The position numbers were made by a program, and so were the translations under genes. Below the pieces are notes generated by a model that had not been told where the DNA came from, searched no databases, and saw only the letters and a list, made by a program, of their open reading frames with translations. A stretch of DNA of 64,000 bases from Chitinophagales bacterium 33-2 (GTDB lineage: Bacteria; Bacteroidota; Bacteroidia; Chitinophagales; Chitinophagaceae): contig MWYV01000038.1 in NCBI GenBank assembly GCA_002050435.1, positions 1 through 64,000 on the forward strand, written 5' to 3'. This document shows positions 18,293 through 27,998 of the stretch, one piece after another; position 1 is the first letter of the stretch; the number at the start of each line of letters is the position of its first letter.

Positions 18293-18976
18293 TCAGCGAA
18301 CAACAAAGCGGTATCCAATACCTTTAATTGTAATGATTTCGATAGAAGGGTCAAGTTTTAAATAGCCCCTGAGCTTGGTTATATAAACATCCAGGTTCCT
18401 GCTATTGAAAAAAGAATCACTTCCCCACAGCGTATTCAAAATTTCTGTCCGCTCAACGATGTTTTCCCTGTTGATGTAAAGTAAACGCAATAATTCACTT
18501 TCCCGGTAAGACAGTTTTTTGTTTTCAGTTGGGTGCACGAGTGTCTGGCGGCGGCTGTTGAAAGTGTAGCCACCAAATTGAACATCATCATTTTCCGTGT
18601 TGGTTCTGCTTTTTACTTTGATTACATTCTCAATGCGCACAATAAGTTCTTCGATGCTGAAAGGCTTTCTTATATAATCATTTCCACCTGCTTTAAATCC
18701 ATTCAGCACATCCGGGGTTTGAGATTTAGCGCTTAAAAAAATAATAGGCACGGAGGCGTCTTTGGACCTGATCTGATCTGCGATCTCAAACCCGTCTTTG
18801 TTTGGTAACATAACATCCAGTACGCATACATCAGGCTCTTTTGAAACAAATTGGTCGAAAGCTTTGGCGCCATCGTTTTCCACCACAACTTCATATCCCC
18901 TTCCTTGCAAAGTTTCACTTACAATTTTTGCAAGAAAGATCTCATCTTCCACATATAAGATCCTGGTTTTTTTCAT
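18293..18976 (-). CDS. OmpR/PhoB-family response regulator
   Basis: A 227-aa DNA-binding regulator. The receiver domain covers residues 1-120, with acidic pocket E10-D11, phosphoacceptor D54 (CVLDVMLP), and K104 in YIRKPF. The winged-helix output domain covers 130-225 (SYRESELLRLLYIN, then DVYITKLRGYL, ending GIGYRFVV). Its ATG overlaps the kinase stop in an ATGA arrangement, so kinase and regulator are translationally coupled. It is followed by the AsmA-like pair and nagA. It probably controls its own operon and the divergent GLPGLI gene through the repeats in the 20.4-kb intergenic region; this is inference. Confidence 0.95.
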   Translation of the reverse strand: MKKTRILYVEDEIFLAKIVSETLQGRGYEVVVENDGAKAFDQFVSKEPDVCVLDVMLPNKDGFEIADQIRSKDASVPIIFLSAKSQTPDVLNGFKAGGNDYIRKPFSIEELIVRIENVIKVKSRTNTENDDVQFGGYTFNSRRQTLVHPTENKKLSYRESELLRLLYINRENIVERTEILNTLWGSDSFFNSRNLDVYITKLRGYLKLDPSIEIITIKGIGYRFVVR

Positions 18977-20388
18977 GTTGAACTTTTACCTGGTAAACTA
19001 ATCCTGAACCTGCTGCCATTATTCTCTTCAGACTCCACCCTGATCGAACCTTTATGTTTCTTTACTACGTGCGCTACATAACTCAGGCCAAGGCCGTAAC
19101 CTTTGGTATTGTGCAGGTTTCCATTGGGAACCCTGAAGAATTTTTCAAAAATCCGGCCATGGTATTCCGGTGGAATGCCCAATCCCCTGTCAGAAACGAT
19201 CAACTGTATTTCGTCATCATTTCCTTCTACAAGAATGTTGATCAATGGCGTGTCAGGACTGTATTTTAAAGCATTGTCAAGCAAATTGAATATCACACTC
19301 ACCAGGTGCAGCCTGTCGCCCTCAAGTGTGGTATTTCCTTTTGATTCCACATTCACAGCAGCCCCTCTTTTTTCAAACTGAAGCCGCAGCGAGGAGGTTA
19401 CTTCTTCCACCAGCAACTTCATATCAAGCGATTCATAGATCAATTCAATTTCTTTTTTTTCAAACATGGAGAGCTTCAGCACTTTGTCTACAAGAAGCGA
19501 AAGTCGTTGGAGTTCATTTGCAGAAATGTCAAGATATTCTTTGGTCCTCGAAGGATCCATTGTTGCATTAAAACTACGGAGTGCTTCTATCGCAACACTA
19601 ACTGTGGCTATCGGGGTTTTTAATTCGTGGGTGATGTTGCTGATAAATTCATTTTTAATATCGCCAAGTCTTCGCTGCCTGATCATATTCCTGTAAAGCA
19701 GCATAAAAGAAAAAAATGTAAGTGCAACCAGGAAAATAGAAAAGAGTATGGGAACACTGATCCTTTTTAAAAGAAAGGGAATGGTATTCCCTAATTCAAG
19801 CTTAAAGGTTACCGGCTCGGTAAAGCCCAGCGTAACCTGGCTGAATCCACCCTCTTCATTTGCCTGACCTTTAAATTTTCTAATAGAAAAGGGAACAGCA
19901 ACCTGGTTTTCATCCAGTTTGTTCCTGTAAGCCTCTTGAATTTCCACAACGCGCACCGAATCCTGCAGCGAATCCACTTCAAACAGAAACTGCATTAACC
20001 TATTTCTGCGGCCGGGAAAATTCTTTTTCAGCGTATCACTGGTCATGTAGATCTGCCGGCGATCAGAGTCTGTAACTCTTTTCATGATCACATCCATCAT
20101 ATTCGTCATTTTCCTTTCGGCCCTATTGTGGTTCACCTTAATTTTTGTATCCCTGCGCAAAAGCATTCTTGGAACAAGAGAGGAGTCGCCCTCAAGCCTG
20201 TCTAGTTTTAATTTAGAACCCTGGAGATTAAAAACCGTTTCCCGAAATAAATAATTTGTGCGCATTTCCAGCGTGCGCTGCTCCCTTTCATAAGCTTTTG
20301 CAAGCCAGTAAACCTGGAAGGCAGCAATGGCCATAATGGTCATTATCATTAGAACAGGCAGCCATTTTTTATTAGCGAACTTATGCAT
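18973..20388 (-). CDS. Sensor histidine kinase, complete copy
   Basis: A 471-aa membrane kinase. Membrane helices lie at about residues 9-30 and 211-233, enclosing a roughly 180-residue periplasmic sensor with no recognised fold. The dimerisation/phosphoacceptor helix has H254 (NITHELKTPIA). The ATPase domain has an N box around FNLLDNALKYSP (367-378), G1 DRGLGIP (400-406), an F box FEKFFR, and G2 GYGLGL (430-435). The C-terminus after residue 451 (ESEENNGSRFRISLPG) completes the ATPase fold. The stop overlaps the response-regulator start. All but its last 21 codons lie inside the 1,946-bp duplication, so a truncated twin exists at 20973-22334. The TAnnTTTG element lies only 5 bp before the ATG. 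Confidence 0.95.
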   Translation of the reverse strand: MHKFANKKWLPVLMIMTIMAIAAFQVYWLAKAYEREQRTLEMRTNYLFRETVFNLQGSKLKLDRLEGDSSLVPRMLLRRDTKIKVNHNRAERKMTNMMDVIMKRVTDSDRRQIYMTSDTLKKNFPGRRNRLMQFLFEVDSLQDSVRVVEIQEAYRNKLDENQVAVPFSIRKFKGQANEEGGFSQVTLGFTEPVTFKLELGNTIPFLLKRISVPILFSIFLVALTFFSFMLLYRNMIRQRRLGDIKNEFISNITHELKTPIATVSVAIEALRSFNATMDPSRTKEYLDISANELQRLSLLVDKVLKLSMFEKKEIELIYESLDMKLLVEEVTSSLRLQFEKRGAAVNVESKGNTTLEGDRLHLVSVIFNLLDNALKYSPDTPLINILVEGNDDEIQLIVSDRGLGIPPEYHGRIFEKFFRVPNGNLHNTKGYGLGLSYVAHVVKKHKGSIRVESEENNGSRFRISLPGKSST

Positions 20389-20393
20389 CGCGA

Positions 20394-20401
20394 CAAAATT
20401 A
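20394..20401 (-). promoter_or_regulatory. Probable promoter -7 element of the kinase operon
   Basis: On the minus strand TAATTTTG matches TAnnTTTG. Only TCGCG separates it from the kinase ATG at 20388, so the transcript would be leaderless or nearly so. The same element recurs at 22340-22347 for the truncated kinase. Confidence 0.5.
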
Positions 20402-20406
20402 CCCTT

Positions 20407-20465
20407 TTCAGGTACCGCTCATACCTGAATTAACCATTATTAACGTAGCATACACCCCTATTAAC
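20407..20465. promoter_or_regulatory. Candidate regulator-binding region between kinase and GLPGLI genes
   Basis: A perfect inverted repeat TTCAGGTA-N7-TACCTGAA occupies 20407-20429. It abuts three direct TTAAC repeats starting at 20430, 20440 and 20461, spaced 10 and 21 bp, which is about one and two helical turns. OmpR/PhoB-type regulators commonly bind phased direct repeats, and this region lies between the divergent promoters. It is duplicated at 22353-22411. Confidence 0.45.
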
Positions 20466-20477
20466 AATCACTCCTTA

Positions 20478-20485
20478 TACATTTG
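20478..20485 (+). promoter_or_regulatory. Probable promoter -7 element of the truncated GLPGLI gene
   Basis: TACATTTG fits TAnnTTTG, 12 bp before the preferred ATG at 20498. No clear -33 TTG is seen at standard spacing. The duplicate at 22424-22431 serves the complete gene. Confidence 0.55.
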
Positions 20486-20497
20486 AAAAAAAATCAG

Positions 20498-20989
20498 ATG
20501 AAACAGTTGTTACTATTTGCCGGAATTTTCTTTTCCATTTGTGCACAGGCGCAGGTGAAAGAAGGAAAAATTATTTATGAACGTGTAACACAAACGCCGG
20601 CAAGAATGTTTGCCAACCTCGATCCCCATATTGCAGCACAAATACCCAAATCAAGGACAGACCAGTTTGAATTATTGTTTGGAAACAACCAGTCCTTATG
20701 GCAATTCATTCCTTCAGCTGCAAATGAAGAACAATCTACTTTTTCAGGAAATGGCATGATAGTGCGCATGGCTACAGGAAATAATGAAATTGCCTATTTC
20801 GATTTTGAAAAAGGAGTGCGGGTTGACCAGCGCGAGGTGATGGAAAAGACTTTTATTGTTACTGATACCATCAGAAAAGGAAGCTGGAAATTAACTGATG
20901 AAACAAAAACCATTTTAAATTATACTGTCAGAAAAGCAATTGGACAAAGAATCAGCACACGCACTTCGATGACTATGGAAACACCCTGA
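20498..20989 (+). pseudogene. GLPGLI-family protein gene, 3'-truncated copy
   Basis: Identical to the first 161 codons of the complete gene at 22444-23241, then broken by the duplication junction. After ...SMTME the frame reads T-P and stops, giving about 163 aa. The signal peptide (MKQLLLFAGIFFSICAQAQ) is intact, but the family-defining G-x-LPG-x-x-LE region and everything after it are missing. It keeps its own promoter and may still be transcribed towards the truncated kinase, with which it overlaps by 17 bp tail to tail. Confidence 0.85.
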
Positions 20990-22334
20990 TCGAACCTTTA
21001 TGTTTCTTTACTACGTGCGCTACATAACTCAGGCCAAGGCCGTAACCTTTGGTATTGTGCAGGTTTCCATTGGGAACCCTGAAGAATTTTTCAAAAATCC
21101 GGCCATGGTATTCCGGTGGAATGCCCAATCCCCTGTCAGAAACGATCAACTGTATTTCGTCATCATTTCCTTCTACAAGAATGTTGATCAATGGCGTGTC
21201 AGGACTGTATTTTAAAGCATTGTCAAGCAAATTGAATATCACACTCACCAGGTGCAGCCTGTCGCCCTCAAGTGTGGTATTTCCTTTTGATTCCACATTC
21301 ACAGCAGCCCCTCTTTTTTCAAACTGAAGCCGCAGCGAGGAGGTTACTTCTTCCACCAGCAACTTCATATCAAGCGATTCATAGATCAATTCAATTTCTT
21401 TTTTTTCAAACATGGAGAGCTTCAGCACTTTGTCTACAAGAAGCGAAAGTCGTTGGAGTTCATTTGCAGAAATGTCAAGATATTCTTTGGTCCTCGAAGG
21501 ATCCATTGTTGCATTAAAACTACGGAGTGCTTCTATCGCAACACTAACTGTGGCTATCGGGGTTTTTAATTCGTGGGTGATGTTGCTGATAAATTCATTT
21601 TTAATATCGCCAAGTCTTCGCTGCCTGATCATATTCCTGTAAAGCAGCATAAAAGAAAAAAATGTAAGTGCAACCAGGAAAATAGAAAAGAGTATGGGAA
21701 CACTGATCCTTTTTAAAAGAAAGGGAATGGTATTCCCTAATTCAAGCTTAAAGGTTACCGGCTCGGTAAAGCCCAGCGTAACCTGGCTGAATCCACCCTC
21801 TTCATTTGCCTGACCTTTAAATTTTCTAATAGAAAAGGGAACAGCAACCTGGTTTTCATCCAGTTTGTTCCTGTAAGCCTCTTGAATTTCCACAACGCGC
21901 ACCGAATCCTGCAGCGAATCCACTTCAAACAGAAACTGCATTAACCTATTTCTGCGGCCGGGAAAATTCTTTTTCAGCGTATCACTGGTCATGTAGATCT
22001 GCCGGCGATCAGAGTCTGTAACTCTTTTCATGATCACATCCATCATATTCGTCATTTTCCTTTCGGCCCTATTGTGGTTCACCTTAATTTTTGTATCCCT
22101 GCGCAAAAGCATTCTTGGAACAAGAGAGGAGTCGCCCTCAAGCCTGTCTAGTTTTAATTTAGAACCCTGGAGATTAAAAACCGTTTCCCGAAATAAATAA
22201 TTTGTGCGCATTTCCAGCGTGCGCTGCTCCCTTTCATAAGCTTTTGCAAGCCAGTAAACCTGGAAGGCAGCAATGGCCATAATGGTCATTATCATTAGAA
22301 CAGGCAGCCATTTTTTATTAGCGAACTTATGCAT
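20973..22334 (-). pseudogene. Sensor histidine kinase gene, 3'-truncated copy
   Basis: Identical to residues 1-451 of the complete kinase, then F-P and stop because the junction joins it to antisense GLPGLI sequence (453 aa). It keeps the sensor, both membrane helices, H254 and all N, G1, F and G2 boxes, but loses the last 20 residues, including the final strand of the ATPase fold. It also loses its coupled response regulator. It could be inactive, or could form mixed dimers with the complete kinase. The promoter and candidate operator upstream are intact, so expression is possible. Confidence 0.85.
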
Positions 22335-22927
22335 CGCGACAAAATTACCCTTTTCAGGTACCGCTCATACCTGAATTAACCATTATTAACGTAGCATACA
22401 CCCCTATTAACAATCACTCCTTATACATTTGAAAAAAAATCAGATGAAACAGTTGTTACTATTTGCCGGAATTTTCTTTTCCATTTGTGCACAGGCGCAG
22501 GTGAAAGAAGGAAAAATTATTTATGAACGTGTAACACAAACGCCGGCAAGAATGTTTGCCAACCTCGATCCCCATATTGCAGCACAAATACCCAAATCAA
22601 GGACAGACCAGTTTGAATTATTGTTTGGAAACAACCAGTCCTTATGGCAATTCATTCCTTCAGCTGCAAATGAAGAACAATCTACTTTTTCAGGAAATGG
22701 CATGATAGTGCGCATGGCTACAGGAAATAATGAAATTGCCTATTTCGATTTTGAAAAAGGAGTGCGGGTTGACCAGCGCGAGGTGATGGAAAAGACTTTT
22801 ATTGTTACTGATACCATCAGAAAAGGAAGCTGGAAATTAACTGATGAAACAAAAACCATTTTAAATTATACTGTCAGAAAAGCAATTGGACAAAGAATCA
22901 GCACACGCACTTCGATGACTATGGAAA
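20982..22927. repeat. 1,946-bp tandem duplication, unit 2
   Basis: Second unit of the direct tandem repeat. It starts at CACCCTGATCG (junction) and ends at ATGGAAA, after which the complete GLPGLI gene continues with ATGGAGAAATG. The absence of any seen divergence points to a very recent event, gene conversion, or an assembly artefact. Confidence 0.93.
22340..22431. promoter_or_regulatory. Duplicated divergent control region
   Basis: Exact copy of the 20394-20485 region. It has the minus-strand TAATTTTG at 22340-22347, the inverted repeat at 22353-22375, TTAAC repeats at 22376, 22386 and 22407, and the plus-strand TACATTTG at 22424-22431. It would drive the truncated kinase leftwards and the complete GLPGLI gene rightwards. 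Confidence 0.5.
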
Positions 22928-23241
22928 ATGGAGAAATGAAGCGCCAGGAATACCAGGATACTTCTGTAATGATCGCGTGGTTTACCACCGAAATACCTGT
23001 ACCAGTTGGGCCAGATACGCAGGGACAACTTCCGGGAGCGATTCTTGAAATGGATATAAGTAATGGCGAGATTGTTTACAAAGCTGTTGAAGTTTCCCCA
23101 AAAGTAAATACAGGGAAAATTAAAGAGCCTAAAGATGGAAAAAGAATTACATCTGCAGAATTCGCAATTGAAAGAACCAGGATGATTGAAGAAATGAGAA
23201 AAAATATGCCGGTAAGAAATAGTTTCCAGATCAGGAACTAA
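22444..23241 (+). CDS. GLPGLI-family secreted protein, complete copy
   Basis: A 265-aa protein with a signal peptide (residues 1-19, cut after CAQAQ). The family signature is in the last third: WFTTEIPVPVGPDTQGQLPGAILEMD, corresponding to the GLPGLI consensus. These Bacteroidota proteins are typically periplasmic or surface proteins of unknown function found beside TonB-dependent or barrel proteins, as here (barrel gene at 24183). TTG 22429 opens the frame, but ATG 22444 fits the signal peptide and lies 12 bp after the -7 box. It is divergent from the kinase and probably under the same two-component control. A terminator follows 21 bp after the stop. Confidence 0.9.
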   Translation: MKQLLLFAGIFFSICAQAQVKEGKIIYERVTQTPARMFANLDPHIAAQIPKSRTDQFELLFGNNQSLWQFIPSAANEEQSTFSGNGMIVRMATGNNEIAYFDFEKGVRVDQREVMEKTFIVTDTIRKGSWKLTDETKTILNYTVRKAIGQRISTRTSMTMENGEMKRQEYQDTSVMIAWFTTEIPVPVGPDTQGQLPGAILEMDISNGEIVYKAVEVSPKVNTGKIKEPKDGKRITSAEFAIERTRMIEEMRKNMPVRNSFQIRN

Positions 23242-27790: not shown

Positions 27791-27998
27791 CCAGCACCTG
27801 TCTCTTATTGCCCTCAGATCGCGCTGATGAACGCAGAAGACCCATCAGCGAAAATCTGCGTAATCTGCGAGAGGCCTTTTTGTTCCCTGTTCGCAAGGCT
27901 CCGGCAACGCTCAAAAAGGTTGTCAGGCAGGTACGAGGCCCGCCGGCCTGAGGCAAAATCTTAATTAAAACTGATGTTTGATTTTTCCCCGGACAGCA
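27791..27998. repeat. Dispersed intergenic repeat, copy B
   Basis: Same orientation as 191-392. The central hairpin segment (CGCTGATG...CATCAGCG) is identical. Differences are scattered in the flanks and in the second hairpin loop (CTCC inserted). Both copies extend to GGACAGCA on the right. Confidence 0.85.

Follow-up and report, generated by a model that had tools for sequence, protein, structure and literature searches.

The window analysed here (64,000 nucleotides, bases 1-64000 of the 69,338-base contig C6) contains an exact head-to-tail doubling of 1946 bp in a sensor kinase/GLPGLI locus. We consider this doubling to be most probably an artefact that arose in assembling a short-read draft genome, with a probability of about 0.8. 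The artefact is favoured because exact doublings are found elsewhere in the same draft, one of them breaking a gene that cells need. The observations on its side are the exact identity of the two units, their blunt joins, the lack of gap letters, 127-base overlaps between contig ends and three sister doublings. As biology, the doubling in the window is probably unimportant; its significance lies in data quality, since a draft with high ratings yet holds exact doublings that would create false truncated genes and break cysS.

An exact doubling with blunt joins

Comparison of the window with itself at an offset of 1946 gives one run without mismatch in which 1946/1946 bases of the two units (Table 1) are identical. 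Identity extends 0 bases beyond either side, the neighbouring bases being already different, and the junction carries no short homology (0 shared bases). The sequence-only reading, which had described units matching base for base and a junction without shared bases, is borne out on both points. There is not a single N in the 64,000-nt window. Chance cannot account for a perfect tandem repeat of 1946 bases, while identical copies lying head to tail, as they do here, are the form taken both by an assembly artefact and by a real tandem duplication.

No third copy of the unit is present across the draft, where the sole further match is a stretch of 80 bases, 73% identical, in contig C50. A dispersed repeat was rejected as an explanation of the unit, as the draft has just two copies of it. 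A mobile element was rejected as well: the unit has no end repeats, and no mobile gene is seen among the ORFs listed between 14 and 28 kb, seven of which were scanned with Pfam. The Tandem Repeats Finder listing, in which the longest period covered is 500, omits the 1946-bp unit.

Table 1. Features of the doubled locus (window positions) and of the sister doublings (positions in their own contigs)
Feature	Position	Strand	Basis or remark
Response regulator, 227 aa, outside the unit, overlaps the end of the intact kinase	18293..18976	-	Pfam Response_reg + Trans_reg_C
Intact sensor kinase, 471 aa	18973..20388	-	Pfam HisKA + HATPase_c
Unit 1 of the exact doubling, 1946 bp	19036..20981	.	matches unit 2 at 1946/1946
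Divergent spacer of unit 1, 94 bp	20389..20482	.	gap between ORFs
Truncated GLPGLI copy, 168 aa (166 native)	20483..20989	+	ORFs, Pfam
Truncated kinase copy, 453 aa (451 native)	20973..22334	-	ORFs, Pfam
Unit-unit junction, blunt, no shared bases, no Ns	20981..20982	.	zero identity extension
Unit 2 of the exact doubling, 1946 bp	20982..22927	.	matches unit 1 at 1946/1946
Divergent spacer of unit 2, 94 bp	22335..22428	.	gap between ORFs
Intact GLPGLI (Porph_ging) gene, 270 aa	22429..23241	+	Porph_ging 56.8 bits, cut-off 25
615-bp doubling	G000:C5:16313-17542 (L025)		two copies, blunt joins; exact-repeat scan
2112-bp doubling	G000:C16:6112-10335 (L035)		two copies, blunt joins; exact-repeat scan
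217-bp doubling inside cysS	G000:C27:13946-14379 (L046)		two copies, blunt joins; exact-repeat scan

Gene content and geometry of the doubled locus

The ORFs of the locus agree with the arrangement claimed from the letters, in which the kinase is whole at the left edge, the GLPGLI gene is whole at the right edge and a truncated pair lies between them. The claimed agreement of the encoded proteins also stands: the truncated kinase has its first 451 residues in common with the intact kinase and lacks the last 20 of 471, and the truncated GLPGLI protein has its first 166 residues in common with the intact 270-aa protein. For the divergent control region said to be kept in each unit, both units do have the 94-bp spacer. 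In Pfam the extra kinase copy retains HisKA and positions 1-93 of 111 of the HATPase_c profile, and no response regulator lies directly behind it. The extra GLPGLI copy retains 31/81 positions of Porph_ging, with a score under the curated cut-off.

A tandem doubling that ends in two genes preserves each of them once in full and places the truncated versions between these, whatever its cause, and it is equally automatic in such a head-to-tail doubling that the left flank runs into one complete unit and the right flank follows on another. The intact gene copies, being a product of geometry, are therefore no sign of selection. A change of dosage, or a decoupled second control region, is for this reason unsupported; the truncated ORFs follow inevitably from the geometry, and the extra kinase and the extra GLPGLI protein are both incomplete. 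The sequence-only reading had left a choice between a real duplication, possibly changing dosage, and an assembly error. The latter half of this alternative gains from the sister doublings and the broken cysS described below, while the dosage change by way of a real duplication found no positive support.

A single divergent locus in relatives

A 4.7-kb query run against 58 genomes, made up of the draft itself and 57 relatives, matched the draft and 28 of the relatives, 29 genomes in all. Fourteen related loci were examined, 11 from relatives of the same genus and three obtained by a kinase scan of named genomes, these last being metagenome-assembled Bacteroidota titled Chitinophagales, Bacteroidetes and Chitinophagaceae. 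Kinase, regulator and GLPGLI gene were sought in them by tblastn (E below 1e-8). The kinase is single and the regulator present in 14/14 loci, and the GLPGLI gene lies on the opposite strand in 13/14, none being found in the stretch searched at L014. With one kinase in every related locus, a single divergent locus is the norm, though all 14 belong to other species, in which a strain-level duplication would not show. In three loci (L016-L018) the kinase match is divided into two parts covering separate stretches of the query; the split comes from a longer sensor region.

The locus thus resembles other Bacteroidota two-component pairs standing beside a GLPGLI (Porph_ging) gene, with a kinase and a regulator throughout, and differs from them in being doubled, a state of the regulator-kinase/GLPGLI locus seen in no other of the loci examined. 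That the regulator-kinase pair is kept divergent from the GLPGLI gene in all but one of the related loci (L005-L018; window 18293-23241) hints, as far as gene order can tell, that the pair may control the GLPGLI protein or sense through it. For Riemerella anatipestifer, PMC9603813 lists five GLPGLI genes among the direct targets of PhoP.

The kind of assembly

The draft comprises 76 contigs and 3,013,322 bases and is rated 90.18% complete and 0.28% contaminated; no N runs were reported in the 77 pieces of it scanned. We compared 128 contig ends (76 starts and 52 ends), leaving out full 500-base matches such as those of an end to itself. Exact 127-base overlaps link C2 with C26 and C5 with C51, and in C52 and C63 the terminal 127 bases recur further inside the same contig. 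The other contig-end matches listed are shorter than 127 bases, except for a 189-base start shared by C54 and C62. Exact overlaps of 127 bases are a typical residue of a SPAdes-type graph assembler at k=127, and the overlaps and terminal repeats found here point to a short-read graph assembler of this kind.

Sister doublings elsewhere in the draft

Exact repeats were sought with a repeat length of at least the period minus 5 and a period of at least 100; arrays with a period below 100 and repeats not lying head to tail were not counted. The scan of 1,357,596 bases returned five rows, of which a 127-base row at the end of C52 was dropped as a contig-end overlap. In the four remaining rows the repeat length equals the period (1946, 615, 2112 and 217 bp). 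The whole of the sequence scanned, 1,698,519 bases or 56% of the draft, contains four perfect doublings, all with exactly two copies and with zero shared bases at their joins.

The 615-bp doubling truncates two convergent genes at their 3' ends while leaving each of them once in full, and the 2112-bp doubling leaves whole and truncated copies of two genes in the same geometry as in the window; from their sequences we take these genes to encode an OmpA-like lipoprotein and UvrA. Together with the 217-bp case, the signature seen in the window thus recurs elsewhere in the draft regardless of gene function.

The 217-bp doubling lies within one frame, which with one copy would be 501 aa long. As 217 is not a multiple of three, the doubling shifts the frame of cysS and splits it into pieces of 344 and 227 aa. 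Searching the draft with TIGR00435 recovers the two cysS pieces, the one at model positions 1-313 scoring over the cut-off and the one at 239-465 under it; no other cysteinyl-tRNA synthetase gene was found in the draft, one further weak match lying under the cut-off. Among 28 relatives searched, 26 have cysS full-length, uninterrupted and in one copy; in G043 it is in two pieces on two contigs, and none was found in G010, which is 62% complete. Cysteinyl-tRNA synthetase is essential and the only copy found is broken; it is therefore improbable that living cells carry the C27 doubling as a fixed state, unless the missing tenth of the genome contains another, intact cysS. Such a copy could exist and would count against the artefact. 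Even so, the broken cysS is the strongest argument that the draft holds false doublings resembling that of the window.

Four relatives were scanned for comparison over 800,000 bases, 200,000 from each (G002, G015 and G034 from one contig each, G012 from about ten), and no exact direct repeats of at least 100 bases were found. Four events in 1.70 Mb of the draft versus none in 0.80 Mb of the relatives would arise with a chance of about 0.21 under equal rates, so that this contrast alone is weak. About 1.2 further doublings per 400 kb had been predicted, and none appeared in the 340,923 new bases that form part of the total scanned, where about 1.0 was expected (chance 0.37). Blunt joins in 4/4 doublings would have a chance of about 0.10 if joins were random.

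Explanations of the doubling

If the doubling is an artefact, the real organism probably has a single ordinary locus, with the regulator and sensor kinase transcribed away from the GLPGLI gene, and a stretch between branch points of the k=127 assembly graph would have been written out twice. One possible route is a loop created by a chimeric or rare read and traversed by the assembler one time too many; another is the end-to-end joining of two contigs whose overlap, the whole unit, was left unmerged. We infer this assembler step, and likewise a common cause for the doubling in the window and its sisters. Two observations run counter to the artefact: the window's doubling breaks no gene for good, and the further doubling predicted for the additional bases is absent.

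A real and very recent tandem duplication that arose through non-homologous joining and became fixed in the strain sampled would also give this order, with the regulator-kinase pair whole at the left edge, the GLPGLI gene whole at the right and a truncated kinase and GLPGLI gene between them. The exact identity and the two whole genes at the edges suit a new event, no gene is lost in the window, and short-read assemblers require some junction sequence to build a loop. We nevertheless regard such a duplication as unlikely, in view of the three sister doublings, with the only cysS found broken by one of them, and of joins without a shared base in all four cases, where duplications in cells usually, if not obligatorily, leave short homologies. 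The single state of the locus in all related loci speaks in the same direction, albeit from other species. Slightly less credible still is a minority form, in which the consensus would have taken up a junction present in some cells, either as the duplication or as a circle formed by the unit, most cells having one unit. It has the merit of explaining a doubling in an essential gene, of which most cells would keep the normal form, but minority forms seldom win the consensus, and neither a repeat at the unit ends nor a mobile gene among the ORFs seen around the unit is present. A circle would likewise yield a head-to-tail junction (compare Shalon et al. 2022, PMC9104695).

It is very improbable, in our judgement, that blunt tandem duplications of 0.2-2 kb really arise at many sites in this lineage and that four of them were caught, including the cysS case as a minority form. 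Were this true, the kinase/GLPGLI doubling would alter a signalling locus. Returning to the artefact, a plain exact-repeat scan is enough to expose doublings of this sort, and claims of recent duplication made from such drafts should pass one first.

Comparison with described assembly errors

Chen et al. (2020, PMC7111523) count among the errors of metagenome assemblies the artificial concatenation of identical sequence, local repeats given in the wrong number, and Ns placed between flanks that in fact overlap, so that duplicate sequence is left. Artificial concatenation is there called seemingly rare, with phage sequences named and up to three or more copies. The doublings described here are like those artefacts in that identical stretches of hundreds of bases or more lie head to tail and are found by a repeat finder, and like the class in which duplicate sequence remains at unmerged overlaps. 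They are unlike those artefacts in being four two-copy cases in one bacterial draft with no Ns at the joins; moreover, the errors of Chen et al. were judged with reads, whereas our doublings were judged from the assembled sequence. Our literature search returned no paper that joins tandem duplication, metagenome-assembled genomes, assembly error and SPAdes.

Other repeats in the window

An RNA family (Rfam) scan of the window at gathering scores gave 0 matches, and so none for a dispersed repeat of about 162 bp that occurs at 191-352 and 27796-27959. This repeat has 63 matching pieces in the draft, with 77-100% identity, and they stand partly in short arrays about 75 bp apart.
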